A DNA stretch of 64,000 bases from NCBI GenBank assembly GCA_012960465.1, contig DUBF01000069.1, positions 1-64,000 on the forward strand. The letters run 5' to 3'. The notes under the pieces are model-generated. The model was not told the origin of the DNA. It did no database searches and saw only the letters and a program-made list of their open reading frames with translations. Both the position numbers and the translations under genes were made by a program. This stretch comes from Rhodospirillales bacterium (GTDB lineage: Bacteria; Pseudomonadota; Alphaproteobacteria; Rhodospirillales; UBA2165). This document shows positions 22,857 to 55,537 of this stretch, piece by piece (position 1 is the stretch's first letter; each line of letters starts with the position of its first letter).

Positions 22857-23420
22857 TACCGTTTTCGTTAGATCAAACGACACGACAAATGGGAGTTTGT
22901 TGGTTAATCCTCTCCTTGATTAGAACCCATTCGGATCCCTGTTAACAATTAAACCTCCCCAGTAATATAAATTAGAATCCTTGATATTCATTTAGAGAAT
23001 TTGGTAAAAAAAATGGAGTGTTCGAAATTTCAAATTCAATCAGGCTGTTGGAGATTGGTAGAGTTTCCTCGGAAGTTTTTTCCAGTTAAAACCGGTCGTG
23101 TCTACTTTAGGGTGCTTCTTGCCACAAATGCTTTCACAATGACATTTCTTGCTCAACCGCCTCTGATCTCTAAGAGCATCAACTATCAGAAAAACTTGGA
23201 AATGGTTAAAATCCTGCAACAATAAAAAAGCCTTCGACTGACGCTCTAAAAATTGAAGGAATTAACCGTTGGGAAAATAAGGATGGCGTAGAGAGAATCC
23301 GCAGAAATCCAGGGAATATTTCATGTGGGCCTGCTTTAATCATTAAACTGTTCACTTCAGTTCTGGACGATTATGTGCCATTATTACTAAATACCCACAT
23401 TTTGTATAAAAGGATTGGAA

Positions 23421-25250
23421 ATGAACTTTCCACCGCTTCCAGACTACCACGCAATTGCGGTATTAATACTGATCATATTTGCGTTGTATCTATTTACGCG
23501 GGAAAATCTCTCACTTGAAACGTCAAGTCTAGCCATTCTGTCAATACTTATCGTCGGGTTTGAGATCTTTCCTTATTCTTCCGATGGTGAATTTCTACAT
23601 GCCATAGATTTTTTCAGCGGGTTTGGACATGAAGCGTTGATCGCTGTTTGTGCTTTGATGATCGCGGGCCAGGGATTAATACGCACGGGAGCGTTAGAGC
23701 CTGTTGGTCGAACCTTAGCATCTCTGTGGTCCACAAATCCGCAAATTTCGTTGCTTTTAATTTTAGTCGTAGGCGGTGTGTTAAGCGCCTTTGTCAACAA
23801 TGTTCCAATCGTGGTTCTGCTACTACCTATATTAACAAGCATCTCCCTGAAAACAAATAAGCCGGCATCAGACATTCTGATGCCAGTTGGATTTTCTACA
23901 TTAGTAGGAGGCATGACAACAACCATTGGAACGTCAACAAACCTGTTGATCATATCGATCGCGGCGGACCTCGGATTACCTCGGCTAAACATGTTTGATT
24001 TCTTTTTTCCGGCGGCGATCGCAGGAGGGATCGCGATTATTTATCTATGGTTAATTGCGCCACGCCTGTTACCCCGGCGAGACACTCCGCTAAGTGACAT
24101 GTCTCCGCGGATATTTACCGGTCATCTGCATATTCCGGACGAAAGTCCTTCGATCGGAAAGACAATCTCCGAAGTCTATGAGCTGGTAGGAAGAGAAATT
24201 AATATAATTGAAATTCAGAGAGGTCCCGGCGTATTTGTGAAGACGTTACCAGACGTTGTTCTAAAATCAGGGGACCGAATTAGCATTCGTGGCACCCCAC
24301 AGCATCTAAAGGATCTCGAAGGCCCGCTTGGCGCTTCTCTTTACGACAAGGATATCCCCGTTGATGACGAACATCCGTTAAGCGCAGAAGACCAGCAAAT
24401 TGCAGAAATTGTCGTCACGCAGGGATCACCTTTAGTTGGTTCCGCCTTTTCAATAGCGCACCTTTCAGAAGAATATCAACTTTTCACGTTAGCTTTTCAT
24501 CGGGCGGGAGCAGATATACTTTCAAACATCAACGACGTAGACAATGTAAGATTACGGATTGGAGATGTTTTGTTAGTGCAAGGAAGTCTTGAGAAAATAT
24601 CAGCAATAAAACGTGAGGGAAAACTACTTGTACTTGATGCAACCGTAGAATTACCCCATGTAAAGCGAGCACCTTTAGCCCTGATGATCATGGTCGGTAT
24701 AGTTTTAATGGCAGCCCTCAACATCCTGCCCATTGCGATCAGTGCTGTATGCGGGGTCTTCCTCATGATTGTCACAGGCTGCATCCGATGGCGCGATGGC
24801 GCTGAAGCACTCAGCACCCAGGTAATTTTAATAGTGGTCGCAAGCCTTGCCCTCGGAATGGCATTATCAAAAACCGGTGGCGCAGAATATTTGGCTCAAG
24901 TATTATTAGCTTTTGCTGGTGATGCCTCTCCGGCGGTTCTTTTAAGCGGCCTGATGTTGGTTATGGCAACATTAACAAATATCGTATCAAATAATGCGGC
25001 AGCCGTAATTGGCACCCCTATTGCCATTAGCATAGCCCAGAAACTCTCATTACCGGCAGAGCCATTTGTCTTAGCAGTTTTGTTCGGAGCGAATATGAGT
25101 TTCGCAACACCCATGGCTTACAAAACAAACCTGCTGGTAATGAATGCGGGGGGTTATCGTTTCTCAGATTTTCTTCGCGTGGGCATCCCGTTAACCCTAA
25201 TTGTTTGGCTTTCTCTATCCGCGATCCTGCCTCGACTATATAATCTTTAA
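23421..25250 (+). CDS. SLC13-type permease with RCK_C (TrkA_C) domains
   Basis: About 609 aa; two hydrophobic halves around a soluble region with two RCK_C-like repeats; SAFVNNVPIVVLLLPIL, FATPMAYKTNLLVMNAGGYRFSDFLRVGIPL. Confidence 0.9.
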   Translation: MNFPPLPDYHAIAVLILIIFALYLFTRENLSLETSSLAILSILIVGFEIFPYSSDGEFLHAIDFFSGFGHEALIAVCALMIAGQGLIRTGALEPVGRTLASLWSTNPQISLLLILVVGGVLSAFVNNVPIVVLLLPILTSISLKTNKPASDILMPVGFSTLVGGMTTTIGTSTNLLIISIAADLGLPRLNMFDFFFPAAIAGGIAIIYLWLIAPRLLPRRDTPLSDMSPRIFTGHLHIPDESPSIGKTISEVYELVGREINIIEIQRGPGVFVKTLPDVVLKSGDRISIRGTPQHLKDLEGPLGASLYDKDIPVDDEHPLSAEDQQIAEIVVTQGSPLVGSAFSIAHLSEEYQLFTLAFHRAGADILSNINDVDNVRLRIGDVLLVQGSLEKISAIKREGKLLVLDATVELPHVKRAPLALMIMVGIVLMAALNILPIAISAVCGVFLMIVTGCIRWRDGAEALSTQVILIVVASLALGMALSKTGGAEYLAQVLLAFAGDASPAVLLSGLMLVMATLTNIVSNNAAAVIGTPIAISIAQKLSLPAEPFVLAVLFGANMSFATPMAYKTNLLVMNAGGYRFSDFLRVGIPLTLIVWLSLSAILPRLYNL

Positions 25251-31219: not shown

Positions 31220-31221
31220 GG

Positions 31222-32910: not shown

Positions 32911-32980
32911 GTTTTATTACCTCAACCATTTCTTAAGGAGCATGTATCAAGTCATTTATGTTTTGACGCAAACATAACGT

Positions 32981-34099
32981 TTAACCTAAAGCCTCTTTCA
33001 AAGCGGCTAAACAGGCGCTGTTATCTTCTTCGGTTCCGACGGTTATACGGATGTTATGCTCATATCCGATATCGGCCCATGCATTAATTTGGATGCCCTT
33101 CTCCAGCATCAATTTTACCATCTCGCGACCATTACCCGGTATCGGTGTAGATACAAAATTGGTGACAGACGGCAATGGATTGAGATCCAACTTCTTCAAA
33201 CCGTCATAGATTTGATCTCGACCAGCGGCTATTGTAGTTAAAATAAAGTCCAGATAATCAGTATCGAGAAGGGCTGCCTCGCCTGCATATTGAGCCAACA
33301 GAGGAACGTTGAATACACATGTTGTTTTTTGAAGCGCCTGAGCGAGATTTGTGTCGCTACAGAGTGCATAACCAATCCGCATCCCTGCCATAGCGTAAGC
33401 TTTTGAGAACGTAAATACGGTAATCCAGGGACCCTTTCGTGTTTTTAAAATTTCTAAAACATTGGGGCCGCCTGCGTGAATACCAAAGTCATAGTAGGCT
33501 TCATCTACGCAGAGAAGTACGTCTTCTGGTACACCATGGATTATTTTTTCTAATCCTGCCTGGTCAACCAGACGGCCGCTCGGATTATTGGGTGTAATTA
33601 AAAAGACGATTTGAGTGTTTTTATTAATCGCATTTAAAATTCCATCAGTATCGGCATTACCGTCGGTTAAGTTCTCGACCTCTATTACGTCCGCTTCAAA
33701 TGCCGCCACCATGGACTTATAACCCCAGAAGGTTGGAACGGGGAGGATAAGTCCCTGTCCGGGCGAAAGAGACAGGTCGATGGCACCTTTCAGAAGCTCT
33801 TCACTGCCATTACCCCAAACGATACAATTGTTATCGATAGCCGTTCGTTCAGAGATGATATCACTCAGATGCGGGCATTGAGCATCAGGATACAGATTGA
33901 CCGAACCCAAATTATCCTGCATCGCTTTAATAACTTTAGGTGATGGCGGATAACAGCACTCATTTAAGCCCATAGCCCTGATTTTTGACGTATCTAAACC
34001 ATTGTACCGCAGCGCTCCATCAGTGGGGGGCTCAACTTTATTAGGTGCGTCCTGAAGCGCTTTTCGAATATAGGGGGTTGGATTATAAACGTCATCCAT
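32981..34099 (-). CDS. HisC-like class I/II PLP aminotransferase
   Basis: 372 aa; ITPNNPSGR, CVDEAYYDF, FSKAYAMAGMRIGY. Confidence 0.9.
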   Translation of the reverse strand: MDDVYNPTPYIRKALQDAPNKVEPPTDGALRYNGLDTSKIRAMGLNECCYPPSPKVIKAMQDNLGSVNLYPDAQCPHLSDIISERTAIDNNCIVWGNGSEELLKGAIDLSLSPGQGLILPVPTFWGYKSMVAAFEADVIEVENLTDGNADTDGILNAINKNTQIVFLITPNNPSGRLVDQAGLEKIIHGVPEDVLLCVDEAYYDFGIHAGGPNVLEILKTRKGPWITVFTFSKAYAMAGMRIGYALCSDTNLAQALQKTTCVFNVPLLAQYAGEAALLDTDYLDFILTTIAAGRDQIYDGLKKLDLNPLPSVTNFVSTPIPGNGREMVKLMLEKGIQINAWADIGYEHNIRITVGTEEDNSACLAALKEALG

Positions 34100-34122
34100 T
34101 TGTGTTTCCTTTGAAAATATTT

Positions 34123-34872
34123 TTATAAATGATGTAATACCTGGCCAATAAAATTCTGGGCACGCTCGGATGCCGGGTTATCAAAAAAGGCGTCGGGCGT
34201 ATTTTCTTCTATAATTTGGCCTTCATCCATAAAAATTACCCGATCCGCGACAGTCCTGGCAAAACCCATTTCATGTGTCACGACCAACATCGTCATACCT
34301 TCCTGCGCAAGATCCACCATCACATCAAGAACTTCCTTTACCATTTCAGGATCCAGGGCAGACGTAACCTCATCAAACAACATAATTTTAGGCTTCATAC
34401 AAAGGGAGCGAGCAATGGCCACGCGTTGTTGCTGTCCACCGGATAATTGTGCGGGATATTTGTCGGCCTGGTCAGCAATTTTAACCCGCTCCAGATAGGT
34501 CATAGCAATTTCTTCCGCCTCAGATTTAGGGACGCGTCGTACCAAATATTGTCCAATAACCAGGTTATCTTTCACGGTCATGTGCGGGAACAAATTGAAC
34601 GATTGAAAAACCATTCCAACCTCTGAACGTATTGAGTCAATATTTTTGAGATCGTCAATCAATTCAATACCGTCAACTATTATTGTACCTTTCTGGTGTG
34701 CCTCAAGTCGATTGATACAACGAATTAAAGTTGATTTTCCTGAGCCTGAAGGGCCGCAAATTACAATGCGTTCTCCCTTAGCCACAAGGACATCAATGTC
34801 ACGTAGAACGTGAAAATCACCAAACCATTTATTAACTTTATCGAATGAGATGATAGTATCGTCTGACATCAA
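34123..34872 (-). CDS. aapP: Polar amino-acid ABC transporter ATPase (AapP-like)
   Basis: 249 aa; Walker [10 protein letters not shown], signature [15 protein letters not shown]. Confidence 0.88.
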
Positions 34873-34880
34873 TGCATCCT

Positions 34881-35993
34881 TTATTGTTGTTCAATGTTGC
34901 TACGATTTTCCAAACGTCTTGAATATTTAGACATGCCAAAAGTAAAAATGAAATAAATTAATGCCGCAAACGTATATGCCGAACTAAAAATATGTGGTGG
35001 CCCAATCCAATCGGAGGATTCTAGTGAAATTTGAATAATTCCAAGTAGGTCGCTAAAGCCAATTAACATAACAATCGTTGTTTCTTTAAATATCATAATA
35101 CAGGTGTTCATCAACGCAGGTATCGAGTTGCGAATGGCTTGGGGCAAAATGATGTAACCCATCATTTTCCAGTAGGACATCCCGATTGCACGGGATGCTT
35201 CAAATTGTCCGATGGGTATAGATTGTAGACCCCCTCTAAACACTTCGGCCATATACGCAGAGTTAAATGCTGCAAAAGCTATAAATGCCCGAACAACAAC
35301 ATCTATCCCTGCGCCGTCCGGAATAAAAATCGGAAGTAGTGCGACAAACATCACAATAATAACGATATGCGGTACGCCGCGCCAGAACTCAATAAAATAA
35401 GTACAGACTTTACTGATGACTTTAAGATCTGATGTCCGACCAAGTGCCAGGATGAGCCCCAAAGGAATGGAGCCCAGGATTGCAATACTGGCAATTACCA
35501 GGGTTAATAAAAGACCACCAAATTCCTCGGGAGCAACATATTTTAGATCAAACGCGTCACCGACTAAGAAAATATACGCCGTAATTGGAAAAATGATAAT
35601 CATCGTTATCCGAAAATATTTAGTCCAACGACCATACGAGTACAAAAATGATATAATTGTCAGAGCGGCCAATGCATAGACAATATTTACTCGCCAATAA
35701 AGTTCACTGGGGTATAGACCATAAACAAAGAGACGCCATCGGTCGGTAACAAAAGCCCAGCATGCAGCGTTAATATCGGGACACGATTTTGCTGAATCGC
35801 CAAACCAAACGGCATTTATAAATGCCCAATGAATTAGGAAATTAGCCAGATTAAAAATAATATAGATCAGTACCAATGTAATCAGTGAGTTAAACCAGCT
35901 GGAAAAGAAATTAATGCGGAGCCAGCCTAACAGGCCTTTAGATTGGTAAGGCGCAGGTTGCGGCATTTTGAAAGGCGCAAGAATAGGTTCCAT
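34881..35993 (-). CDS. aapM: Polar amino-acid ABC transporter permease (AapM-like)
   Basis: 370 aa; [62 protein letters not shown]. Confidence 0.85.
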
Positions 35994-36002
35994 CTTTCTA
36001 AA

Positions 36003-37169
36003 CTACCTTTCCGGTATTCGGGTCATGTGGTTGTAAATAGCCATAAGCATGGCAATGAAAAGGCTGATACCCAGATACCCGGCAAGTGTAATCGCCTGGA
36101 GTTCCATCACCTGTCCGGTTTGAGGAGCTATTGCTCCATCCATGGCCCAGAAAAAATCAGCGTAGCCTATTGCGCCGGCAAGAGCTGTTGATTTGGCAAG
36201 GCTCAAATATTGATTTGTAATCGGAGGAATAATAAACCGCATGGCTTGCGGAACAATAACTTGGGAATAAGTCTGCATGTTCGTAAAGCCAATGGAGCCG
36301 GCGGCTTCTTTTTGACCTTTATCAACAGATTGAATGCCTGCACGTATAATCTCTCCCACGAATGCCGCGTTATACAATGTCAGACCGAATACCATTGCTG
36401 TAAATTCCGGTTCAAGAGCGGTTCCACCTTCAAAATTAAAACGACCAAATTTCGGGACTTCCCAGGTAACTGGAAAATCCAAAACCCAGGCGACAAGCAG
36501 TGGCAATAGGATGATCAAGCCTGCTCCCAAAATGAGTGACGGAAAAGGTTGCCCTGTATTTTTTTGTCGGTGTTTTGCCCATGCCCAAATAATGGCGGAG
36601 ATTAATGTCGCTATCAAAACGGCCCACGCAACAAATTCCGCGCCGCCCTCTAAAATAGGTAACGGAATAAAGAAACCTTCTATATTAAGAAATGCCACGT
36701 CAAAAAAACTAATGGAAGATCTTTTCATGGGCAGCATTTTAAGCGCTGCAAAATACCAGAAGAAAAGTTGGAGCAGCAGAGGGACATTTCGGAAAACCTC
36801 CACGTAGCCATTACCAAACTTACGCAGAAGGAGGTTCGACGAAAGTTTAAACATTGCAATAAAAAAGCCCAATATAGTGGCGAGAATTATGGCAATAAGC
36901 GATAGAAAGATCGTATTGAGCAGGGTTACGATCATCGCCTCGATGTAGGTCGATCGCGGGCTGTAGTCGATAAGTGCCGGGCTGATGGGAAAGCCGGCTT
37001 CATCGGTTAAAAAATCGAAGCCCGTTTTCAGGCCAAGCCGGGCCATATTGGTTGTCGCTATATCATATACCCAGAACATCCCGCAAATTATGACTACAAC
37101 CAGTCCCCATTGGTACGTAAGCGAACGTACACTGCCTTTGCGCCAGAAGCTGAGTAAATTTTCCATCAA
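36003..37169 (-). CDS. aapQ: Polar amino-acid ABC transporter permease (AapQ-like)
   Basis: 388 aa; EVFRNVPLLLQLFFWYF, EIIRAGIQSVDKGQKEAAGSIGF. Confidence 0.85.
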   Translation of the reverse strand: MMENLLSFWRKGSVRSLTYQWGLVVVIICGMFWVYDIATTNMARLGLKTGFDFLTDEAGFPISPALIDYSPRSTYIEAMIVTLLNTIFLSLIAIILATILGFFIAMFKLSSNLLLRKFGNGYVEVFRNVPLLLQLFFWYFAALKMLPMKRSSISFFDVAFLNIEGFFIPLPILEGGAEFVAWAVLIATLISAIIWAWAKHRQKNTGQPFPSLILGAGLIILLPLLVAWVLDFPVTWEVPKFGRFNFEGGTALEPEFTAMVFGLTLYNAAFVGEIIRAGIQSVDKGQKEAAGSIGFTNMQTYSQVIVPQAMRFIIPPITNQYLSLAKSTALAGAIGYADFFWAMDGAIAPQTGQVMELQAITLAGYLGISLFIAMLMAIYNHMTRIPER

Positions 37170-37194
37170 ATAGACTTAAGTGTTTCAATACTAA

Positions 37195-37230
37195 TGGGTG
37201 CCTCATTGAAATTAATTAATGAGGCACCCA
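37195..37230 (-). terminator. Perfect hairpin between aapJ- and aapQ-like genes (attenuator or mRNA stabiliser)
   Basis: TGGGTGCCTCATT-gaaattaatt-AATGAGGCACCCA, perfect 13-bp stem. Confidence 0.7.
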
Positions 37231-37262
37231 GGGATCAGTTTATTGGGTAATGGTGTTAAGGC

Positions 37263-38303
37263 TTAACGGAAAGGAGGAGAAATAAGCAGTCCACCTTTAG
37301 TATGCAGTACGTTCTTGCCTCGAGGCATGTTTAAACGACTATCTTTGCCTAAATGTTTTTCCCACATTTCACCGTAATTACCGACGGCTTTAATGGCATT
37401 GTAGGCCCAGTCTTTACCCAGTCCAATTTTTGCTCCGAACTTTCCTGTTGTCCCCAAAATACGTTGGACAAATGGGTTCTTTGCACTTGACCTCATCTTA
37501 TCGACATTCTTGCTGGTAATCCCAAATTCCTCAGCGGCGATAAGAGCGTTAAAAGTCCAGACAACAATATCTTTCCAGACCTGATCGCCGTGACCCACCA
37601 TGGGTGAAATAGGCTCATTTGAAATAGTTTCCGGTAAGATCATATGTTCATCCGGGTTTGTCATGGCTAAACGACGAGCACCAAGACCAAACTTATCTGT
37701 GCAGAAAGCATCGCAACGCTTTGCATCATACGCCTTTTGAGCTTCGCCCATACTTCCAAATGTCACCTGCTTGAACTTCATCCCGTTTTTGCGGAAGTAA
37801 TCCGACACATTACCTTGAGTTGTCGCACCAGCTGACATGCAAAATGTTGCGCCATCCAACTCTTTAGCTGATTTTACGCCGAGGCTTTTGCGAACCATGA
37901 AACCCTGGCCGTCAAATACCATAACGCGGGTAAAATCCAGTCCTTGGCCCACGTCTCGCGCGAATGTCCAGGTAAATCGGTGAGTGACCACATCGACCGT
38001 ACCAGCTTTCATAGCATTAAAAGCGACAGGCAGTTTCATTTTTGTTGTTTTGATTTTATCAGCGTCACCAAGTACCGCTGCTGCAATAGCGCGGCACAAG
38101 TCAACATCAAAGCCAACCATTTTTCCCGCTTTATTCGGGAAAGCGTAACCCGGCACGCCTGGCACAACGCCACAATGAAGAATGCCAGCTTTTTTTACGT
38201 CCGCTAAACGATCGGCCTTTGCCGCAGTCGCCATAATACCTAAAGAGGCGATTGCAGCTGACATTACGGTCAAGCGTCCAATTTTAGAATTAAGAAATCT
38301 CAT
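37263..38303 (-). CDS. aapJ: Amino-acid ABC transporter substrate-binding protein (AapJ-like)
   Basis: 346 aa; signal peptide-like N-terminus, ILHCGVVPGVPGYAFPNKAGKMVGFDVDLCRAIAAAVLGD. Confidence 0.88.
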   Translation of the reverse strand: MRFLNSKIGRLTVMSAAIASLGIMATAAKADRLADVKKAGILHCGVVPGVPGYAFPNKAGKMVGFDVDLCRAIAAAVLGDADKIKTTKMKLPVAFNAMKAGTVDVVTHRFTWTFARDVGQGLDFTRVMVFDGQGFMVRKSLGVKSAKELDGATFCMSAGATTQGNVSDYFRKNGMKFKQVTFGSMGEAQKAYDAKRCDAFCTDKFGLGARRLAMTNPDEHMILPETISNEPISPMVGHGDQVWKDIVVWTFNALIAAEEFGITSKNVDKMRSSAKNPFVQRILGTTGKFGAKIGLGKDWAYNAIKAVGNYGEMWEKHLGKDSRLNMPRGKNVLHTKGGLLISPPFR

Positions 38304-38383
38304 TTACTATCTCCCAGTGAAGGTTTTTATTTTATCAATAATAGAATTTAAGTTGGTTTTAACACTAATTTGACAACGAGCTT

Positions 38384-38406
38384 AATACAAGTATTGTTAT
38401 ATTGTA
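38384..38406. promoter_or_regulatory. Candidate MarR operator in the divergent aapJ/marR region
   Basis: AATACAAGTATTGTTATATTGTA: IR AATAC-AA-GTATT overlapping TACAA-N11-TTGTA. Confidence 0.35.
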
Positions 38407-38457
38407 AATACGCGTAACTGCAACCTATTATTAAGATGTATTTGTGAAAAAAGATTT

Positions 38458-38949
38458 ATGCCTGCTAAAGACACAGAGCCCTATATCTCAGAGGAAAAAG
38501 TAACAACACAAATTCGAGCAATTTGGGTGCGCAATTTTGCTTGTATAAAGGAGACACTACGTCAATTTGATCTCACGCCAGTGCAGTGGCGCGTCCTGGC
38601 AAATTTGCAAGAATTCAATGGGCAGAATGTCTACTCGCTTGCGGAACGCAGTTACACAAACCGCGCAAACCTCAGTCGTGACGTCGCAATCCTGGAAAAG
38701 TTAGGCCTGGTTGAGCGCAACAGAGAAAGTCGGGATCAACGGAATGTCCTGGTGACACTCACCTACGCCGGTAAAATTAAATTTGATCAGGTTAGACCGG
38801 CAGTGGAACAGGAAACAAATTTTATCCTCGAAGGCCTCTCATCCCCCGAAATCGAAACTTTGATGCGATTACTGGTTAAAATAAAACATAACTCCTATCG
38901 TCAACACCCTATGGTTCATAACACTAGCAAGGAAAAGTCTAATGGCTGA
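38458..38949 (+). CDS. MarR family transcriptional regulator
   Basis: 163 aa; winged helix LTPVQWRVLANLQ...NRANLSRDVAILEKLGLVERNRESRDQRNVLVTLT. Confidence 0.9.
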   Translation: MPAKDTEPYISEEKVTTQIRAIWVRNFACIKETLRQFDLTPVQWRVLANLQEFNGQNVYSLAERSYTNRANLSRDVAILEKLGLVERNRESRDQRNVLVTLTYAGKIKFDQVRPAVEQETNFILEGLSSPEIETLMRLLVKIKHNSYRQHPMVHNTSKEKSNG

Positions 38950-40627
38950 TATAGCGCAAAAAACCGGCGGACAGATTATCGTCGATCACTTGGTAAACAA
39001 TGGTATTGACCGGGTGTTTTCAGTGCCGGGTGAGAGTTTTTTAGGCGTCATGGATGCCTTATATGATCGAGCAAATGAAATTCAATTTATAAACTGTCGA
39101 CAGGAAGGTGGCGCCGCTTTTATGGCGGCGGCCTTCGGTAAATTAACCGGAAAACCAGGCGTTTGTTTTGTCACTCGTGGGCCGGGTGCGACGAATGCAA
39201 GTATTGGCGTACATGTTGCCAAACAAGATTCTGTACCGATGATTTTATTTGTGGGACAAGTTTCCGTATCATCTACCCATCGGGAAGCCTTCCAAGAGGT
39301 TGACATCCCTGCGATGTTTAAGCCCCTAGCCAAATGGGCCGTACAAATTGATGACGCCGAACGATTACCTGAGTTACTCAACCGAGCCATAAAGGTTGCC
39401 ACCTCCGGCAGACCCGGTCCAGTGGTTATAGGTATTCCTGAAGACATGCAGATGCAATTAGCGAATGCACCCGAAGTTGCGCCGAACGTTCCGATAATTT
39501 CTGGCCCTTCTTCAACTCAAATTGAGCAGTTAGGTAATTTGATTAGTGGAGCACAGCAACCCGTAATGATGTTGGGGGCTTCAACTTGGAATTCGGAGGC
39601 GTGTGATCAAATCTCAGAATTTGCCAAACGGCACGATATTCCAGTCGTGGCGGGCTTTAGGTGCCAAGATAAAATCAATAACGATCATCCCAATTATATT
39701 GGCAGCATAGGTCCAGGGACGCCACCTCATATAACCAACCTAATTAATGGCTCTGATTTATTCATGGTTCTTGGCGTCGAGTTGAGTGAGATTGTTACCC
39801 AAGGGTTCTCGCAATTCACCTTGCCAAGGATGAAGCAAACGTTGGTTCACGTGCACCCAGAGGAAGAAGAACTGGGCCGCATTTATCAACCTGAACTCGC
39901 AATTCAATCCAGTATGACAGAGTTTGCAACGTCGGTGGCCGACAAGACCTTTAAAGTAAATACAAAGAAGACGGCAAATACCCAAGAGCTTAGAGAGCAA
40001 TTTGAAAAATTCGTTGTGCCCTCGACGTGTCCCGGGGATGTTCACATCGGCGAAATACTGGCATGGCTCGATACGAGATTGCCGAATGACGCAATCGTAT
40101 CATGTGGCGCCGGGAATTATACCCACTGGATATTGAGGTTTATCCAACATCGCCGTTTTGGGACGCAACTAGCGCCTCTTGGAGCTGTCATGGGATATAG
40201 TGTGCCGGCAGCAATCGCCGCCTCAATACAATTTCCTGATCGCATCTCCGTTGCTTTCGCGGGCGACGGATGCTTTCTGATGAACGCCCAAGAAATTGCA
40301 ACAGCGAAAATGTATGGTGCCAGCCCAATAATTATAATTATTAACAACGGAATTTATGGCGCTATTCGAATGCATCAAGAACGCGTATTTCCAACGCGCT
40401 CCATCGGTACCGATCTGGTAAATCCAGATTTTGTCGCCTATGCCAACGCCTTTGGCGCGAATGCCTATCGAATTACAAAAACAGAAGACTTTGAAAAGGC
40501 CTTCGAGGCGGCCGTTACAAATCAGGGGCCAAGTATAATTGAACTTGTCGTTTCTGAAGAGGCTATTTCGCCGGCTTTTACGTTGACCGAGTTGACCGAG
40601 AAGTCGCTCAAAAATCAGAAGGTGTGA
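38942..40627 (+). CDS. Thiamine pyrophosphate-dependent enzyme (acetolactate synthase/2-oxoacid decarboxylase-like)
   Basis: 561 aa; RVFSVPGESFLGVMDAL, CRQEGGAAFMAAAFGKLTGKPGVCFVTRGPGATNA, AFAGDGCFLMNAQEIATAKMYGASPIIIIINN. Confidence 0.92.
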   Translation: MADIAQKTGGQIIVDHLVNNGIDRVFSVPGESFLGVMDALYDRANEIQFINCRQEGGAAFMAAAFGKLTGKPGVCFVTRGPGATNASIGVHVAKQDSVPMILFVGQVSVSSTHREAFQEVDIPAMFKPLAKWAVQIDDAERLPELLNRAIKVATSGRPGPVVIGIPEDMQMQLANAPEVAPNVPIISGPSSTQIEQLGNLISGAQQPVMMLGASTWNSEACDQISEFAKRHDIPVVAGFRCQDKINNDHPNYIGSIGPGTPPHITNLINGSDLFMVLGVELSEIVTQGFSQFTLPRMKQTLVHVHPEEEELGRIYQPELAIQSSMTEFATSVADKTFKVNTKKTANTQELREQFEKFVVPSTCPGDVHIGEILAWLDTRLPNDAIVSCGAGNYTHWILRFIQHRRFGTQLAPLGAVMGYSVPAAIAASIQFPDRISVAFAGDGCFLMNAQEIATAKMYGASPIIIIINNGIYGAIRMHQERVFPTRSIGTDLVNPDFVAYANAFGANAYRITKTEDFEKAFEAAVTNQGPSIIELVVSEEAISPAFTLTELTEKSLKNQKV

Positions 40628-40630
40628 TTT

Positions 40631-41770
40631 ATGGCGAAAAATTTTACAGACCCAAATATACTTGTGCGCGCAGAGATCGCAACACTGCCCACTCCCGGCT
40701 TTGGTGTTAAATATGATGAGTTCCAGAGAGATAACCCGGATTTAGAAATTATAAGATTGGGCAGTAATGAAAATTTATACGGTCCAAGTCCCCTCGTTTT
40801 AAAAGCGATTGAGGATAGTATCGGGGAAATTAATTTTTATCCCGATAACACCTGCACCGAAATTTCTGAGAAGATGGGTCACGTATTAGGTGTGGATCCG
40901 TCGCGGCTTGTTTTCGATTGCGGTGCTGAGTCAATTATGTTGACGTTGATGAATTTATGTCTGAGGCCTGGCGACAAAGTGGTCAGTTTAATTCCAAGTT
41001 TTCCACCTATCTATACCTGGACGGCGGCTGTCGGTGCCGAGGTTATTGGCGTAGAGCATGAAGATGACTTATTGTTTTCCGCTGACAAATTTTGTGATGC
41101 GGCGGCCGGCGGCGTTAGAATGGTTTATCTGTGCATGCCAAACAATCCAACGGGAAGTTATTTCACAGGGCCTGAACTATCTGCCATTGTGGAGGCCTCT
41201 TCATCTGATACCTTGTTTGTGCTTGATGAAGCCTATGTGGAATTTTCGCGCGATAAATCGAATTATCCTAATGCTATCCAAATCCTTGAGGCGGCGGGCC
41301 AGCCTTATATATCGCTTCGAACCATGTCAAAGGCGTATGCCCTTGCCGGCATGAGGATCGGCTACGGCATTTGTTATCATGAGGAATTTGCCGGGTTGCT
41401 CAAGCGCGCCAACACCGTTTTTAATGTGGGCGTATTAACCTTGAGGGCGGCTGTCGCCGCTTTATCCGACCCCCAACATGTCAAAAAAACTCTCAGCGCT
41501 GTTTCCGATGAGAAAAGCCGTGTCGAAAAAGAAATGCTTTCCATGGGTATACGTTTATTTAATTCAGCCGGTAATTTTAATTGCGTCTGGGTATCCGAAT
41601 TCAGCCAGGCTCTCGACATTCAAAATAAAATGCAGCAGGTTGGAATTTTTATCAAAGGACAAAAAGGACGTCCAACAAAACAGGGTGATTTTGAGGGCGT
41701 TTTGCGGATTACCGTTGGCACACCCGCATATAACGATAAAATGCTAAAGGAGTTGGAAACTCTGATCTAA
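40631..41770 (+). CDS. HisC-like class I/II PLP aminotransferase
   Basis: 379 aa; IRLGSNENLYGPSP, CMPNNPTGSYF, VLDEAYVEFSRD, MSKAYALAGMRIGYG. Confidence 0.92.
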   Translation: MAKNFTDPNILVRAEIATLPTPGFGVKYDEFQRDNPDLEIIRLGSNENLYGPSPLVLKAIEDSIGEINFYPDNTCTEISEKMGHVLGVDPSRLVFDCGAESIMLTLMNLCLRPGDKVVSLIPSFPPIYTWTAAVGAEVIGVEHEDDLLFSADKFCDAAAGGVRMVYLCMPNNPTGSYFTGPELSAIVEASSSDTLFVLDEAYVEFSRDKSNYPNAIQILEAAGQPYISLRTMSKAYALAGMRIGYGICYHEEFAGLLKRANTVFNVGVLTLRAAVAALSDPQHVKKTLSAVSDEKSRVEKEMLSMGIRLFNSAGNFNCVWVSEFSQALDIQNKMQQVGIFIKGQKGRPTKQGDFEGVLRITVGTPAYNDKMLKELETLI

Positions 41771-41946
41771 GGTTACGAAAAACCATTATTCAGTATGAAT
41801 AATTCCCCATTACCACCGATGTCAGGCGTTATTTGAGCTAATATCTACTGGTGCTTATTATTACGATGGGACCATCATCGATCGGCAGAGAGAAAAGACT
41901 TTTGAACTCCGTATTCCGCAGGAAAAACAGCAAGAGTGTTTCGAAT

Positions 41947-42066
41947 TTAAAGATCATATAATTGAGGCAGGATCGCGGATAGAGAGCGCCAAACGATTAA
42001 GGTGAGCGGGATGCCAACGCGAATAAAATCGGAAAAACGATAATCACCTGGCGAAAGGCGTTTGTA
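41947..42066 (-). pseudogene. C-terminal remnant of an SLC13 permease homologous to the gene at 23421-25250
   Basis: Minus-strand translation ...GDYRFSDFIRVGIPLTLIVWRSLSAILPQLYDL*, nearly the same as GGYRFSDFLRVGIPLTLIVWLSLSAILPRLYNL* at the end of the intact gene. Confidence 0.88.
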
Positions 42067-42086
42067 TTAGTTAAATCACGGTCCGC

Positions 42087-43160
42087 CTATGGTAACAAAA
42101 TTGTTGAACCGACGTTCTTGCCACGCTCCAAGTCTCGGTGAGCCAGATGTGTATCACTCAAAGGATAAATCTGATTCACACGGATTTTGATGTTCTCCTT
42201 CTCGACCATGTCAAACAATTCAGCGGCAGTGGCTTCCAATGCTTTGCGTGGTGTTATGAAGTGACGCAGGGACGTGCGCCGGAAACTTAGGGATCCTTTC
42301 GTCATCAATACACTAGGTTCTATGGGATCTAATTTGCCCGAGATGTCGCCATAAGAGATCAAATGGCCCAGTGGGCGTAAGCTCGCAATCGAAATATCAA
42401 AGGTATCTCTCCCAACGGGATCATAGACGGCTTGGACACCTTCGCCATTGGTAATTTCGCGAACCCGTTCGGCGACATTTTCGTTTTTGTAGTTTATAGG
42501 GAAATCACATCCATTCAATTTTGCTATTTCAGCTTTTTTGTCGCTACTGATTGTGCCAATAACTCTCGCGCCTAAATGTTTTGCCCATTGACACATAATG
42601 GTGCCAACACCTCCGGCAGCAGCATGGATAAGTATACTATCACCCTTCTGGACGTTATACGCACGACACAAAAGATATTGGGCGGTCATGCCTTTGACCA
42701 TCATTGCTGCAGTTGTTTTATCGTCTATGGAGTCAGGAACTACTATAACTTTCTCCGCATCGACAAGCCGGCTCTCCGTATAACCACCAAAGCCACCGAA
42801 CCCGTAGGCGACCCTTTGACCAACATTAAGCCCGTTCACGCCACAACCAACCTCTTCGATAATACCAACAGCTTCACGACCAAGAGTGAGTGGGAACTGG
42901 TCGGAGGCAAAACTACCTTCCCCAGCGCGAAGAAGAACCTCATTATAATTAACACCAATCGCGGTTTGCCGCAGTCGGATTTCTCCTGGGCCTGGCTTGC
43001 CAATTTTAACATCCTCGTACTTAAGGACTTCTGGTCCACCAAACTCATGAATTCGAACAGCTTTTACCAACAATTGAACTCCTTGAAATCGCAGATCGAT
43101 TGGAACGAGGTGCGTTAGCACCTTTAAATAAAACTTGAATGAAGGCGCATTTTTTAACAT
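42087..43160 (-). CDS. Zinc-type alcohol dehydrogenase/quinone oxidoreductase (MDR family)
   Basis: 357 aa; IHEFGGPEVLKYEDV, GVNYNEVLLRAGE, HAAAGGVGTIMCQWAKHLGARVIGT; true start may be internal near VKAVRIHEFGG. Confidence 0.9.
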   Translation of the reverse strand: MLKNAPSFKFYLKVLTHLVPIDLRFQGVQLLVKAVRIHEFGGPEVLKYEDVKIGKPGPGEIRLRQTAIGVNYNEVLLRAGEGSFASDQFPLTLGREAVGIIEEVGCGVNGLNVGQRVAYGFGGFGGYTESRLVDAEKVIVVPDSIDDKTTAAMMVKGMTAQYLLCRAYNVQKGDSILIHAAAGGVGTIMCQWAKHLGARVIGTISSDKKAEIAKLNGCDFPINYKNENVAERVREITNGEGVQAVYDPVGRDTFDISIASLRPLGHLISYGDISGKLDPIEPSVLMTKGSLSFRRTSLRHFITPRKALEATAAELFDMVEKENIKIRVNQIYPLSDTHLAHRDLERGKNVGSTILLP

Positions 43161-43191
43161 TGCATCAAATGAACTTTTATTTCAATCTACG

Positions 43192-43213
43192 AGTTGTAGG
43201 TTTTCTTACAACT
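43192..43213. promoter_or_regulatory. Inverted repeat in divergent promoter region
   Basis: AGTTGTA-ggttttct-TACAACT, perfect 7-bp arms. Confidence 0.3.
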
Positions 43214-43363
43214 TTGCACTAAAAAAAATTTGGCGCTACGCTGAAGAATCCTGGCCGAAGGAGATCATTAACCCGCAGGCGATGAAATAGAACCAAAATG
43301 AGCGCAGTAATCTTTATTCACGTAAAGAATAGAATTTGATGCTATTTGACCATGGAGGTATTT

Positions 43364-45403
43364 ATGATTGAAGCTTTATTGACTGCATTCGGTCTCGTTT
43401 TTGCATGGCCAGCTATCGGATACCTGATGCTTGGAATTGGTCTGGGTATCTGGATTGGCGCAATCCCTGGATTGGGTGGCATTATAGGATTGGTTCTGTT
43501 ACTGCCCTTTACGTTCGGTATGGAAACAATTCCGGCCTTCGCTTTGTTGCTGGGTCTTTGGACAGTCACCGCTACCAGCGATACGATCTCTTCAGTGATG
43601 CTCGGTATTCCCGGAACCGCGGCTTCCCAAGCAACCATCCTTGATGGCTATCCAATGGCTCAGAAGGGTTTGGCAGCAAAGGCTTTCGGGGCCGCTTTTA
43701 CGGTATCAGCTATCGGTGGTGTGGTAGGTGCTATAATCTTGGCCGTTTCACTGCCTATTATATCCCCGGTTATTATGGCTTTTGGATCACCGGAATTATT
43801 CGCTCTCGGTATGCTCGGCCTGGCTATGGTCGGCACCTTGAGTGGTGCTTCTATCATGAAAGGCTTAGCAGCGGGGATGTTAGGATTGATGTTGGGGACG
43901 ATAGGTTTGGCTGAAACTGTGGCTATCCCGCGCTATACGTTTGGGTCACTCTATCTTATGGATGAGCTTCCTATAATTCCCGTTGTTTTGGGATTATTTG
44001 CAATTCCGGAACTTATGGAACTGGCGGTTAAGAATGTATCTATTTCCCGTGTCCCAAAAGATCAGGCCGTTGGTGGTGGGATTATCGATGGTATCCGGGA
44101 AGTTCGTAAACACTGGTGGTTGGCTCTTCGTTGTAGCATTCTCGGGTCTTACATAGGCATGCTTCCCGGGCTTGGAGCCTCAATCGTTGACTGGATCGCC
44201 TACGGTCATGCGGTGCAGAGTGCTAAAGACAAATCCCAGTTTGGAAAGGGAGATATTCGTGGTGTCATTGCCCCTGAAGCTGCAAATAATGCGATCAAGG
44301 GGGGGGCGCTTATTCCAACAGTTGCTTTTGGCATCCCCGGTAGTTTAGGGACTTCAATTTTGCTCGGTGCGCTTATTATGCAAGGCCTTCGCCCAGGACC
44401 GATGATGTTGTCGGAGAACCTTCATATTACTTTCTCTTTGGTGTGGATGATTGTTGTTGCCAATATTGTGGTTGCCGGGTTGCTTATGCTTTGGTCCAAG
44501 CAAGTTGCAAAAATAGCCTTTCTTCCCGGCCATCTGGTGGTTCCTGGTGTTATTGTGTTCGTATTCATGGGAGCATGGCTGGGAGGAGCTTCCTACGGTG
44601 ACTGGATTACCTGTCTGACAATAGGTATCGTTGGCTTTATCATGAAACGGGGTGGATGGCCACGACCGCCCTTGGTCCTCGCACTCATTCTCGGCAACAT
44701 CCTTGAAAATACGTTTCAGATCAGCAATCGAGCTTACGATGGGCTGTCATGGCTAACGCGTCCGATCGTCATGATCGTCGTAGCATTGGTTGTCTTGACC
44801 TTGATTTTTGCGGTTCGTGGGATCATTAAACATAAGAAAGGGCAGTCGAACGATCCAGATTCTGCAGTCGTAGGAGAGGGTGGTGAAAGAAATCCCCTCG
44901 TTTCCCTACCTTTTTCGGTGGCTCTTGGCATCATGTTTGTTTGGGCAGCATTTGAGTCCATTTCCTGGCCGGCAGAAGTCAGGCAATTTCCCATTATCAT
45001 CGCTATACCGGGTGCCATCCTTGTGTTCGTGACGTCGTTTCATGATTCTCGCGACCTGGTTCGGGCACGGGCAGCGGCGGGAAGCCTAGCTAACGCGGTA
45101 TATACTTTCTCTGAACAGGCGGTGCTGCCAAAAGCACTAATGTTTTTTGGTTATCTCATTGTTATGTTGTTGTTGACACTGGTGGTTGGTCAGAAAATCG
45201 CTATGCCAATTTTTATTGGTCTCTATTTGTGGCGTTGGGGCGGTTACGGCTTGCGGGTTTCTCTTGGTTACGCCTTGGGAGGTTGGGCTTTCATTGTTCT
45301 TTTCTATGATCAAGTCATGCACCTTATTTTTCATCCGTCGTTTTTCTATTCCATGGTACAGCCTCTTGTTCCTGAGTGGTTCCCTGGCTGGCTAATTTAT
45401 TAA
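43364..45403 (+). CDS. TctA-family TTT permease with C-terminal TctB-like domain (fusion)
   Basis: GAIPGLGGIIGLVLLLPFTF, GMLPGLGASIVDWIAYGHA, TVAFGIPGSLGTSILLGALIMQGLRPGP; about 180 extra residues with several TM segments; SD GGAGG before ATG at 43364. Confidence 0.88.
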   Translation: MIEALLTAFGLVFAWPAIGYLMLGIGLGIWIGAIPGLGGIIGLVLLLPFTFGMETIPAFALLLGLWTVTATSDTISSVMLGIPGTAASQATILDGYPMAQKGLAAKAFGAAFTVSAIGGVVGAIILAVSLPIISPVIMAFGSPELFALGMLGLAMVGTLSGASIMKGLAAGMLGLMLGTIGLAETVAIPRYTFGSLYLMDELPIIPVVLGLFAIPELMELAVKNVSISRVPKDQAVGGGIIDGIREVRKHWWLALRCSILGSYIGMLPGLGASIVDWIAYGHAVQSAKDKSQFGKGDIRGVIAPEAANNAIKGGALIPTVAFGIPGSLGTSILLGALIMQGLRPGPMMLSENLHITFSLVWMIVVANIVVAGLLMLWSKQVAKIAFLPGHLVVPGVIVFVFMGAWLGGASYGDWITCLTIGIVGFIMKRGGWPRPPLVLALILGNILENTFQISNRAYDGLSWLTRPIVMIVVALVVLTLIFAVRGIIKHKKGQSNDPDSAVVGEGGERNPLVSLPFSVALGIMFVWAAFESISWPAEVRQFPIIIAIPGAILVFVTSFHDSRDLVRARAAAGSLANAVYTFSEQAVLPKALMFFGYLIVMLLLTLVVGQKIAMPIFIGLYLWRWGGYGLRVSLGYALGGWAFIVLFYDQVMHLIFHPSFFYSMVQPLVPEWFPGWLIY

Positions 45404-45453
45404 CCCCCGACATTCGGTCATCTAAACAGAGGTCTTAAAAGGAGATATTAGAA

Positions 45454-45840
45454 ATGCCCAGATACTTCAACCCGGAAACCATAAGCCCACCGTTCAATCC
45501 CTATAGTCACGGCGCAGAGGCAAGGGCTGGTAGCCGTCTTCTCTTTCTCGCCGGTCAGGTTGGAGCCGACAAGAACGGTAATATTGCGGCGGATTTCGAG
45601 GGTCAAGCCAACTTGGCTTACGCAAATATTGAAGCCATTCTGAACGATGCGGGAATGGAATTCGCCAACTTGGTAAAGATGACGACATTTTTAATTAATA
45701 CTGAGGACGGGCCTAAAATGCGCGAAATCCGGAAATCATTCCTAAAGGATGTCCGGCCTCCTCACACTCTGCTTTACGTCAGCCGACTCGCCAATCCTGA
45801 ATTTTTGATTGAAGTCGAAGGCGTTGCGGCCGCGGACTGA
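45454..45840 (+). CDS. RidA (YjgF/YER057c/UK114) family protein
   Basis: 128 aa; LFLAGQVGADKNGNIAADFEGQANLAYANIEAILNDAGM, HTLLYVSRLANPEFLIEVEGVAA. Confidence 0.92.
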   Translation: MPRYFNPETISPPFNPYSHGAEARAGSRLLFLAGQVGADKNGNIAADFEGQANLAYANIEAILNDAGMEFANLVKMTTFLINTEDGPKMREIRKSFLKDVRPPHTLLYVSRLANPEFLIEVEGVAAAD

Positions 45841-46150
45841 GCGCATGCGCTACTAACTCGTAAAAATATTCTTGACGTTGTTTGATGCTGATCTTCTTTA
45901 TTGGGACAGGTCTCGTTCCGAAATTTTTTCAACTGTTGGGATGGACCCACAAAGGTTTAATTATACCATCCTGATTAGCGGTTAACATTGTCAAAGATTC
46001 TTGAGTAGATTGTAATGCTATCGGTTGCCTGATATAATCAATAGAAGTGTGAGAAGCCCGATTTAATAGAATTCTGTGGGCTAATCCCTCAATAATCTGT
46101 CATTTTTTTTTGATGGCAATAAAGAAATTTTTGCAAGGGGAGGTAGAATC

Positions 46151-47248
46151 ATGAGACGTTTAGGTGTACTTTTTTCCGCTACTGTGGCAGCAGTCGCGGC
46201 TTTATCGACATACGGATTACTCGGTGAAGTAATTGCCAAACCTTATTATCAAGGCAAAACCATCACAGTGATTATAGGTCTTGGACCGTCATCCGGCGGT
46301 ACTACTATGGGCCGGGTAATAAGCAAGCATATGTCCAAGGCAATTGCAGGTAATCCTAAGATGGTTATTAAGAACATGCCTGGCGCGGCTTTTATGAAAG
46401 CACACAAATACGTGCTTAAGTCGGCTCCGAAGGACGGAACGGTCGTTTATTACGGTCCTAGGAAGCCGATCGGTGAGTTGCTAGGAGCGCCCGGGCATGA
46501 CTTCAAGTATACGGATTTCAATATCTTGGGCGGCATTCAGGTTGCCGGACTAGTGGTCGCAGCCCGTTCTGATGTTGTGGCGGGAGGCGCTAAGTCGGTG
46601 AGCGATCTTCTGAAATCAACTTCATTAAAATACGGTGGTTTGTCGCCGGAACACTCCCGGATGCTCTTATGCATGCAGGCCATGGACCTTCTTGGTATGA
46701 AGTACAGGTTTGTTCCGGGTTACCGTGGTAGTGGAAAGATTAGAGCGGCGCTTTTCAGGGGCGAAGTCAACCTGGCTACCGATGCAGCGCACGCTTACCG
46801 TAACAAAGTTGTTCCCCAGCTAGTGAAGAAAAACAAAGGATTTGGTGCTTTTCATATTCCCGTGTTAGCTAAAGATGGGTCTCTGATGAAAAACAAACTG
46901 GTGCCAGATGTCCCGTACTTCCTGGATGTTTACAAACAGGTCAAAGGGGGAGCCCCTTCTGGCGAGAAGTGGGAAGTCATGAAAACCCTGATCAAGGTTG
47001 ATCAGACCATGCAGCATGTGTACATGGGACCTCCAGGGATGAACCAAAAAGCTGCGGCGGCATTCCGTAAGGCCATTCTTCCGGCCTTAGCGACCGAAGC
47101 TTTCAAGAAAGACGCGATGAAGATTTTAACATATGTACCCGGTGCTGTTGAATACAAAAAGGCGCAGAAGATCATTGCTTCGACAAAAAACGTTCCGGCC
47201 AGTGTCGTCAAATATTTAAAGGGTTACATCGCCAAACATTCAAAATAA
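46151..47248 (+). CDS. TTT (TctC-like) substrate-binding protein
   Basis: 365 aa; signal peptide-like N-terminus, YYQGKTITVIIGLGPSSGGTTMGRVISKHMSK. Confidence 0.8.
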   Translation: MRRLGVLFSATVAAVAALSTYGLLGEVIAKPYYQGKTITVIIGLGPSSGGTTMGRVISKHMSKAIAGNPKMVIKNMPGAAFMKAHKYVLKSAPKDGTVVYYGPRKPIGELLGAPGHDFKYTDFNILGGIQVAGLVVAARSDVVAGGAKSVSDLLKSTSLKYGGLSPEHSRMLLCMQAMDLLGMKYRFVPGYRGSGKIRAALFRGEVNLATDAAHAYRNKVVPQLVKKNKGFGAFHIPVLAKDGSLMKNKLVPDVPYFLDVYKQVKGGAPSGEKWEVMKTLIKVDQTMQHVYMGPPGMNQKAAAAFRKAILPALATEAFKKDAMKILTYVPGAVEYKKAQKIIASTKNVPASVVKYLKGYIAKHSK

Positions 47249-47267
47249 GAGTAAAAACCCATTCGGC

Positions 47268-47317
47268 TTCACATAAAACACCGGTAACTCTTTAAAGTTA
47301 CCGGTGTTTTATGTGAA
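47268..47317 (+). terminator. Long perfect hairpin, likely terminator after TctC-like gene
   Basis: TTCACATAAAACACCGGTAACT-CTTTAA-AGTTACCGGTGTTTTATGTGAA, perfect 22-bp arms. Confidence 0.85.
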
Positions 47318-47575
47318 AGTTCTCGCGAACTGCCCGTCCTCTTATTGCCCAAATAAAGATCCAAGCTTTATTGCAAAGCAGCATGTCGTTTGTTCTAACC
47401 TAACTTTGGGACTTATAAAAAGAAAAGCTTTAGTCCCACTAGTATTAACCCGGAATCTTCCCGATGTTATTATCTCTGTAAGCGAGCAATATTTAAACAA
47501 ACAAAAAAATTGGTTATCATATATATTTTGACCATACAATACGGCCATAATTATTAAGAACCAAAAGGAACTACG

Positions 47576-48208
47576 ATGTCTGATCTTGTATATGAAGGGA
47601 AACCCTATTCTCACAAATTTGGGGAATTTGAAATCCGTCGCTGGTATGCGCAAACTCAAGATATACTAACTAATGAGACATGGCAGACATCTGGCCTTGA
47701 ATACCCACAACGCAAAATTATCGTAGGCGCGGTTATTAAAAACCCTTTTGCCGGTAAATTTGAAAACGATTTATCTTCTGTTTTTGACAACACCGCTGAC
47801 CTTGGCCATGAATTTGGTCGTCGCATCGTTGAAAATCTAAGCGGCCACGATGCGGAAAGTTATGGTAAGGCCTGTATCGTTGGACTTAATGGTGAATATG
47901 AGCATGGTAATGCATTTCTGACGACTACTTTCGCCAACCCGGTTCGAGCCGCAATTGGTAATGCCAAGGCATGGATACCATCAACCGGAAAACGCGGTGT
48001 CCCCGGCTCCTCAATTGATATCCCGTTGGCCCATAAGGAAGCGCTATATGTGCGTTCCCACTACGACACGATCACGGCTACGTTTGACGATGCACCTGCG
48101 CCAGATGAAATTATCATTCTGTTTGCAGTGGCTACACAAGGGCGTATTCACGCAAGATTAGGTGGCCTTACCGCCGATAAAATAACAGGTAAAGACGGGC
48201 TAGTTTGA
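47576..48208 (+). CDS. Amino acid synthesis family protein (PF06684/DUF1185-like)
   Basis: 210 aa; FEIRRWYAQTQDILTNETW, VGAVIKNPFAGKFENDL, GKACIVGLNGEYEHGNAFLTTTFANPVRAAIG. Confidence 0.75.
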   Translation: MSDLVYEGKPYSHKFGEFEIRRWYAQTQDILTNETWQTSGLEYPQRKIIVGAVIKNPFAGKFENDLSSVFDNTADLGHEFGRRIVENLSGHDAESYGKACIVGLNGEYEHGNAFLTTTFANPVRAAIGNAKAWIPSTGKRGVPGSSIDIPLAHKEALYVRSHYDTITATFDDAPAPDEIIILFAVATQGRIHARLGGLTADKITGKDGLV

Positions 48209-49114
48209 ATGTCAGATGGTCGACAAACCTCTTACATTCCAAGTCACGAAAGAGTTATCCCCTCCGGAAAATTAAAAATAAATGTGGTTGAATGGGGCCA
48301 GGTTGATGCACCGCCCATTGTTATGCTCCATGGCTTGAGGGCTTACGCACAGACGTGGGATCGCGTTGCCCAGGTTTTGGCTAAGAAATACCACGTTGTA
48401 GCTCTCGATCAACGCGGTCGCGGCAAGAGCGACTGGGCTCCATCTACAGATTATTTTACACCAAATTATGTTGAAGATTTAAAGAACGTGGTTGATGGGC
48501 TTGATTTGAATAAATTTACTTTACTGGGTCACTCAATGGGAGGGGCAACAGCACTTGTATTTTCCCAGATGTATCCAGAATATCTTGATGGTCTGGTAGT
48601 TGAAGATATAGGCCCTGGTTCATCCGCCGCCTCAAGCGGTGCAGATCGAATTAAAAAAGAATTGAATAATACACCGCGGCTACTTTCATCTCGCGCCCAA
48701 GCAAAAATATTTTGGCAAAAAGCCCGCCCGGGGGCTCCCGATGAGGCTATTGAGCAGAGGCTTGAATATATGATGATCGAAGACGAAGATGGTGGGATGA
48801 GGTGGCGCTATGACCTTGAAGGTATTTCTAAGGCTCGCCTCGATGGCGATATTTCGAAAATCCCCGATCTATGGCCGCCGGTCGTAAATTTAAATGTACC
48901 TACGTTGGTACTGCGTGGCGAGAATTCTGACTTTCTATCTAAGGAGGTTATGTCGGAAATGGCCCAACGAAATTTAAACATAAGCGCGTTCGAGATTTCC
49001 GGGGCTTCACATTACATTCACGACGATAATTTTGATGAGTTCATGACCAGGCTTGAGCCATTTTTGGAAGAGCTATCTCAAACGCGTTTGTCGAAAAAGC
49101 GGAGCTCAAAATGA
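48209..49114 (+). CDS. Alpha/beta hydrolase
   Basis: 301 aa; VMLHGLRAYAQTWD, LDQRGRGKSDWA, LLGHSMGGATALVFS. Confidence 0.9.
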   Translation: MSDGRQTSYIPSHERVIPSGKLKINVVEWGQVDAPPIVMLHGLRAYAQTWDRVAQVLAKKYHVVALDQRGRGKSDWAPSTDYFTPNYVEDLKNVVDGLDLNKFTLLGHSMGGATALVFSQMYPEYLDGLVVEDIGPGSSAASSGADRIKKELNNTPRLLSSRAQAKIFWQKARPGAPDEAIEQRLEYMMIEDEDGGMRWRYDLEGISKARLDGDISKIPDLWPPVVNLNVPTLVLRGENSDFLSKEVMSEMAQRNLNISAFEISGASHYIHDDNFDEFMTRLEPFLEELSQTRLSKKRSSK

Positions 49115-50664
49115 ATGGGGCCCAGGTATTAATGTCAAGCGCCAGCGCTGCTGGCATTGATGTGTGTTTTTCAAATCCCGGCACCACAGAACTGGCGATG
49201 ATAGAAGCGCTTGATAAAAACAAAACTATTCGTCCGGTTTTATCACTTTTTGAAGGCGTGTGCAGCGGCGCCGCCGATGGGTTTGGTCGTATGCTTGGGC
49301 GGCCGGCTATGACACTTCTTCATCTTGGGCCAGGTTTTGCCAATGCTATAGCAAATTTGCATAACGCCCGGCGTGCTCATTCACCCATCTTGAATATTAT
49401 TGGTGATCATGCAACATGGCACGTTGACTACGATCCACCCTTAGCAAGTGACATCGCCTCTTTGGCGCAGCCGGTATCTGATTGGTTTGCCTATGCTTCC
49501 AGCGCGGACGACTGTACAACAAAAATAAATGAAGGTTTGGAAGTTTGTGCGACGGCACCTGGCAAAATTTCAACACTTGTTGTCCCCACTGATGTTCAGG
49601 AAGCCAAATCTGAGATTTCCGATGGAATACAGCCAAACGATTTCCAGCCAAATTGGAAGTTTAGTGGAAAGAAAGTGGAGCAGCTGGCAAAACGCCTCTC
49701 TGATACCAACGGTGAAGTTATAATTTTGCTGGGAACAAAGGCCCTTACGGAACGAGGACAGAATGCTGCCGATAGGGTCGCAGTCAAATTGAATGCGAAG
49801 ATTTACGCGGAGACCTTTCCTGCACGTTGGGATCGAGGCGCTCATATTTCTGTGCCCGAGCGGTTCCCTTATTTTCCGGAGATTGGTTTAGAAGTATTAA
49901 AAAATGCCAAAACAATTATTCTTGTTGGAGTAAAGGCGCCAGTTGCATATTTTGGGGTTACTGGGGTGCCAAGCAAACTGTTTCCCGAGGACGCTCTTTA
50001 TGAACTTGCTTCGGTCGCTGAAGATGCAGAAGGCGCGATACTAGCATTAGCGGAAGCAATTGGCGCTACGAATATTAAAACGTCCTCTGATTGGGAGCCT
50101 CCCAGACAACCCGACTTGAAACGGCCGCTTGATGTACAGTCTTGCGGGGAAATGGTCGCTTATTTGTTACCAGAAAACTCAATTGCGATGGTTGAAGGGG
50201 CTACATCTACGCCGCCCTTTTATACGGCGTCTCCCGCAGGAGCACCTCATACACTTATCACCAACACCGGAGGAGCTATTGGTCAGGGAATGCCAGTTGC
50301 AACCGGTGCAGCTATTGCCTGTCCGGAGCGTAAGGTTATCAATCTGCAGGCGGATGGATCTGGCGCCTATACCGTTCAAGCCCTTTGGACGCAGGCAAGG
50401 GAACAATTAAACGTTGTCACCATACTATGTTCCAATCGTAAATATGGAATATTGCGCGTTGAATTTGAGCGCGCTGGAATTGATCCGACCGCTCGGATAA
50501 CGGATCAAATGACCAGTCTTGATAATCCGCCCTTGAATTGGGTAGCCCTTGCTAATGGATTTGGCGTGCCGGCATGTAAGGTAAATACTCTTGAGGAATT
50601 ACACACCAATCTTATTCGTGCGATCGCCGAACCAGGCCCCTATCTGATCGAAGTGCCTATGTGA
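49111..50664 (+). CDS. Acetolactate synthase large subunit-like TPP enzyme
   Basis: 517 aa; CFSNPGTTELAMIEALD, SLFEGVCSGAADGFGRMLGRPAMTLLHLGPG, LQADGSGAYTVQALWTQAREQLNVVTILCSN. Confidence 0.9.
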   Translation: MNGAQVLMSSASAAGIDVCFSNPGTTELAMIEALDKNKTIRPVLSLFEGVCSGAADGFGRMLGRPAMTLLHLGPGFANAIANLHNARRAHSPILNIIGDHATWHVDYDPPLASDIASLAQPVSDWFAYASSADDCTTKINEGLEVCATAPGKISTLVVPTDVQEAKSEISDGIQPNDFQPNWKFSGKKVEQLAKRLSDTNGEVIILLGTKALTERGQNAADRVAVKLNAKIYAETFPARWDRGAHISVPERFPYFPEIGLEVLKNAKTIILVGVKAPVAYFGVTGVPSKLFPEDALYELASVAEDAEGAILALAEAIGATNIKTSSDWEPPRQPDLKRPLDVQSCGEMVAYLLPENSIAMVEGATSTPPFYTASPAGAPHTLITNTGGAIGQGMPVATGAAIACPERKVINLQADGSGAYTVQALWTQAREQLNVVTILCSNRKYGILRVEFERAGIDPTARITDQMTSLDNPPLNWVALANGFGVPACKVNTLEELHTNLIRAIAEPGPYLIEVPM

Positions 50665-50819
50665 AATCCCCGACTTAGAACGAGTTGTCTATTTTCTTAG
50701 AGACTTTTATTACCTTTAAAAATCAACCTATTTAGGCCTAATATTAAGCCATAGACTTCATTTATACTAGTATGTTAGTATAATCCTAAAATCGCATTCT
50801 ATAATATGGCGGGAAAACA

Positions 50820-52280: not shown

Positions 52281-52344
52281 AGCCTCTCACTTAGAAGTAG
52301 AAACTTTTTATGATTGATCAGGGCCAATGAGAAAGTGAAGATTA

Positions 52345-52986: not shown

Positions 52987-53116
52987 CTTACGGGTTTGGA
53001 ACAGCCCAACGTTTTAAAAGTAGCAGCTATATTTTCTAATTCCAGTTTGAATTTTTACCAGATATAATTTGCGAAGGTGTTTTTTAAAAGTAGCTTTAAG
53101 ACAAAAGGGGGATATC

Positions 53117-53914: not shown

Positions 53915-53954
53915 AAATATATTTTGTACTGAGACTAAATAAGGTGATCTCAAT

Positions 53955-55522: not shown

Positions 55523-55537
55523 ATATTAGAGTATATC

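Follow-up and report, generated by a model that had tools for sequence, protein, structure and literature searches.

The 3′ ends of genes are known insertion sites of integrative elements, the duplicated gene ends being direct there, and icd/e14 is an example of such a 3′-end attachment-site duplication. Intergenic gene remnants have been counted in single genomes with Pseudofinder, which recorded 238 in Shewanella and 305 in Sodalis (PMC9336565). The locus described here lies in a stretch of 64,000 nucleotides from a Rhodospirillales draft genome, termed the window, and contains a real but ordinary gene remnant, the tail of a permease gene of the SLC13/DASS type. The features concerned are as follows.

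23415..25250, plus strand: intact SLC13/DASS-type permease gene, open frame (PF03600, E 4e-71; PF02080, E 1e-16)
40631..41770, plus strand: class I/II aminotransferase (PF00155), left border of the gap and end of the block colinear with the congener G002
41771..47575, no strand: block differing from G002, which has a sulfatase paralogue (G002:C10) between the same flanking genes on both sides
41849..41945, plus strand: decayed 5′ portion of a small-protein gene of 69 aa (DNA matches G000:C181, G021:C49 and G014:C1)
41947..42043, minus strand: SLC13/DASS-type permease remnant (86.6% identity to 25154-25250, E 3e-26)
42087..43160, minus strand: zinc-type quinone oxidoreductase/alcohol dehydrogenase (PF00107, PF08240), right border of the gap

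Comparison of the window with itself by blastn aligns positions 25154-25250 (plus strand) with 42043-41947 (minus strand) over 97 bp, which is the strongest repeat within the window. The aligned segment is the 3′-terminal 97 bases of the gene, comprising the last 31 codons, the stop codon and one base more, so that 31 of about 610 parent codons are covered in addition to the stop. The best ungapped 97-base match has 84 identical positions out of 97, while the maximum over 100 shuffles was 47/97. Similarity begins at about 42043 and ends at the stop codon, with both edges sharp, and the flanks of the match gave no alignment on either side. An earlier note on this DNA had matched a minus-strand translation in the gap to the C-terminal end of the SLC13 protein; that translation is correct, and the range then given (41947-42066) exceeds the DNA homology by about 20 bases. 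In the 3.74-Mb draft genome (245 contigs) the only matches of this subfamily are the intact gene and the remnant, a third SLC13 match being a paralogue at 25% identity.

The intact permease displays a CitMHS domain with a TrkA_C insert. It scores 240.2 bits with the Pfam CitMHS model, for which the cut-off is 31.9 bits, and remains under the curated cut-off of the NCBIfam DASS model TIGR00785 (76.8 vs 198.6 bits), which places it in the wider CitMHS/ArsB-NhaD-like group and not in the narrow DASS subfamily. At E <= 1e-150, the intact gene has homologues (44-76% identity) in only 19 other genomes among 317 of the order, with one match each, and the nearest records are mostly Rhodospirillales MAGs. 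Orthologues of the subfamily were not found in G002 (57% complete) or in the other genus members examined, and this sparse distribution fits a horizontal gain. In the SLC13 neighbourhoods that were compared, the flanking genes of the window were absent, except for generic ABC ATPase and SLC13 paralogue matches. The xanthine-dehydrogenase-type genes adjoining the intact copy are present in the genus in other surroundings, and thus the ancestral order on this side cannot be fixed; no colinearity with G002 or the other relatives examined was observed left of 30.7 kb. The SLC13 orthologue of a further genome in the order (G043:C53:5237-6915, L005) is split, with an in-frame TAG, so that loss of an SLC13 gene is not unique to the window.

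When the remnant is compared with other SLC13 genes over the bases that it covers, identity is 73-75% for the closest ones (L038-L040, from Rhodospirillales MAGs, with proteins 76% identical) and 55-66% for more distant homologues. The similarity to the intact copy (86.6%) is therefore better than that to any other SLC13 member compared (55-75%). Five of the 97 bases are derived states common to the remnant and the intact copy only, among the homologues compared, and the residues SAILP likewise occur in both window copies and nowhere else in this comparison. When a tree is built from the 97 bases, a split with a support of 100 sets the pair apart from the rest, the branch lengths being 0.03 for the remnant and 0.12 for the intact copy. 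With L038 and L040 as outgroups, nine differences were assignable, and the relative ages of the copies rest on these nine sites: six changes fall to the intact gene, of which five are synonymous and one turns Asp into Asn, and the other three fall to the remnant, with two synonymous changes and one from Leu to Arg. The remnant is a piece of a close sister gene of the intact copy. Since the intact gene carries six of the nine assignable changes, the remnant would be no worn copy of today's intact gene, an indication, from nine sites only, that it was not copied from it; on the same basis, the remnant has probably not been decaying for long.

Upstream of its stop codon, as far back as the previous in-frame stop, the remnant contains no ATG, GTG or TTG in frame, and the Leu to Arg change affects a position that is hydrophobic in homologues. 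Because of these two features the remnant is, as judged from its sequence, almost surely dead. It displays the properties of a truncated duplicate pseudogene, namely similarity to an intact gene, coverage of a small part of the parent and a frame that is not translatable alone.

The gap (41771-42086) lies between the aminotransferase and quinone-oxidoreductase genes, which are unrelated, and contains a second fragment, missed by the earlier note, that adjoins the SLC13 remnant. This fragment is similar to the 5′ half of a 69-aa gene (G000:C181:133-339; also in related genomes), with 75% identity (E 1e-6) to the G000:C181 copy of the window's own genome. It has lost the start codon, carries one frameshift and lacks the 3′ part, and it ends where the SLC13 tail begins, the two fragments abutting tail to tail. 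The motif AAAGA at the junction is present in both parent genes, at the SLC13 end and in the small-protein gene; it would suit end joining with little homology and is too short as proof. The small-protein family (sequence MKFMLVVIITMGSPVIGEEKKTFELRIPQE...) begins with a signal-like segment and matches neither Pfam nor NCBIfam, and its members include G000:C181:133-339, G000:C18:7729-7887, G001:C11, G002:C93 and G007:C11 (L158-L166). In G001, G002 and G007 the family is located downstream of an apparent glmS 3′ end, with a 130-aa ORF alongside in two of the three, and in the window's genome a tyrosine-recombinase-like ORF precedes it at a distance of 24 bp. A small mobile element near glmS may carry the family as cargo. 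Rfam revealed no RNA element at 41700-42200, and ARAGORN detected no tRNA in the window.

In G002, the equivalents of window positions 30746-41770 and 47576-56317 follow one another with gene order and orientation unchanged, most genes being 82-95% identical, and between these segments a sulfatase paralogue replaces the 41.8-47.6 kb of the window. As only this part is replaced, the remnant marks the left edge of a variable block, and the genes at 30.7-41.8 kb are not a recent insert. The block comprises the gap with both remnants, the quinone oxidoreductase, TctA, a RidA-like ORF and a 365-aa ORF (46151-47248) that has no Pfam match. In the search for its source, the quinone oxidoreductase had no match at E <= 1e-118 in other genomes (317 genomes of the order), its best relatives being 50-55% identical, and the relatives of TctA were at most 72% identical. 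The gene downstream of the aminotransferase varies, being AT2 in G001, a sulfatase in G002, a TPP enzyme in G011 and other ORFs in G005 and G007. The aminotransferase itself (40631-41770) shares only 57% identity with the gene at the corresponding place in G002 and 61-65% with those of other relatives, whereas most neighbours display 82-92%, and this low identity suggests a gene replacement at the edge of the block. Near the right edge, downstream of the 365-aa ORF, a 50-bp near-perfect palindrome (47268-47317) is probably a transcription terminator.

The explanation preferred here, with a probability of roughly three in four, is that the gap at 41771-42086 is a graveyard junction, where a second SLC13 gene deleted to its tail abuts a cut small-protein gene. 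The lineage would once have had two SLC13/DASS-type permease genes on opposite strands, one at 23.4-25.3 kb and one at ~42 kb, the latter downstream of the quinone-oxidoreductase gene. The two copies would have diverged to ~13% in DNA, both probably coding then, before a fairly recent deletion, presumably by end joining, took the second gene except the last 31 codons and the stop. A decaying small-protein gene would have been cut at nearly the same point, leading the fragments to meet tail to tail, and what is left at the junction would do nothing. The earlier view that a second SLC13 copy existed, the rest of which is gone, is backed by the match, the genome search, the comparison with homologues and the tree; the 317-genome search of the order did not reveal a full second copy at this site in any genome.

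Other readings of the gap and the remnant are less probable. The gap may be a recombination hot spot of the genus, which foreign blocks repeatedly enter, leaving fragments of earlier cargo such as the SLC13 tail and the small-protein head, and this proposal is a doubtful one. It is unlikely that only a short SLC13 3′ piece was taken in by illegitimate recombination, with no full second gene ever at this position; nothing upstream of the last 31 codons remains and the homology edges are sharp, which speaks for such a capture, but the remnant keeps six older states lost by the intact gene and has few changes of its own, which points to a separate gene copy under selection as its source, and a divergent donor gene would be needed anyway. 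The two inverted copies flank the intervening DNA, and the earlier note had proposed that 25-42 kb was inserted or shuffled by recombination at SLC13 copies. Recombination between inverted copies would invert the segment, and this is unseen relative to G002, where 30.7-41.8 kb keeps its order and orientation with respect to 47.6-56.3 kb; in addition, the congeners examined yielded no counterpart of either SLC13 copy. The comparison with G002 contradicts that proposal, which we regard as very improbable. An erroneous join of unrelated contigs at the SLC13 end, conceivable in a draft of 245 contigs, is equally hard to credit, as the copies differ by 13%, the match being too short and too diverged for an assembler's repeat collapse, and synteny with G002 holds on either outer side of the variable block. 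Finally, an integrative element entering the SLC13 3′ end and leaving the displaced 3′ end at its far border would yield a copy that is exactly the gene end with its stop codon, and the small-protein family adjoins a tyrosine-recombinase-like gene in one contig, but the copies lie on opposite strands and are not direct, no PF00589 integrase was found on contig C69, and 30.7-41.8 kb is ordinary chromosome colinear with the congener, so that att sites were rejected as next to impossible.

The remnant matters for annotation and for local history only, as a trace of genes gained and lost at a variable site, and it teaches nothing new on the permease or on recombination mechanism. Similar to the attachment-site duplications of integrative elements, the duplicate is limited to the 3′ end of a gene; in contrast with them, the copies are inverted and the contig has no integrase found. 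Its parent family is that of the SLC13/DASS permeases (CitMHS, PF03600) with TrkA_C inserts, and while the intact copy has both domains, the remnant keeps only the last 31 of ~610 codons. The intergenic remnants described with Pseudofinder (PMC9336565) are alike in being truncated pieces, located in gaps without a called ORF and recognised by translated similarity, but here a surviving paralogue lies 17 kb away on the same contig.
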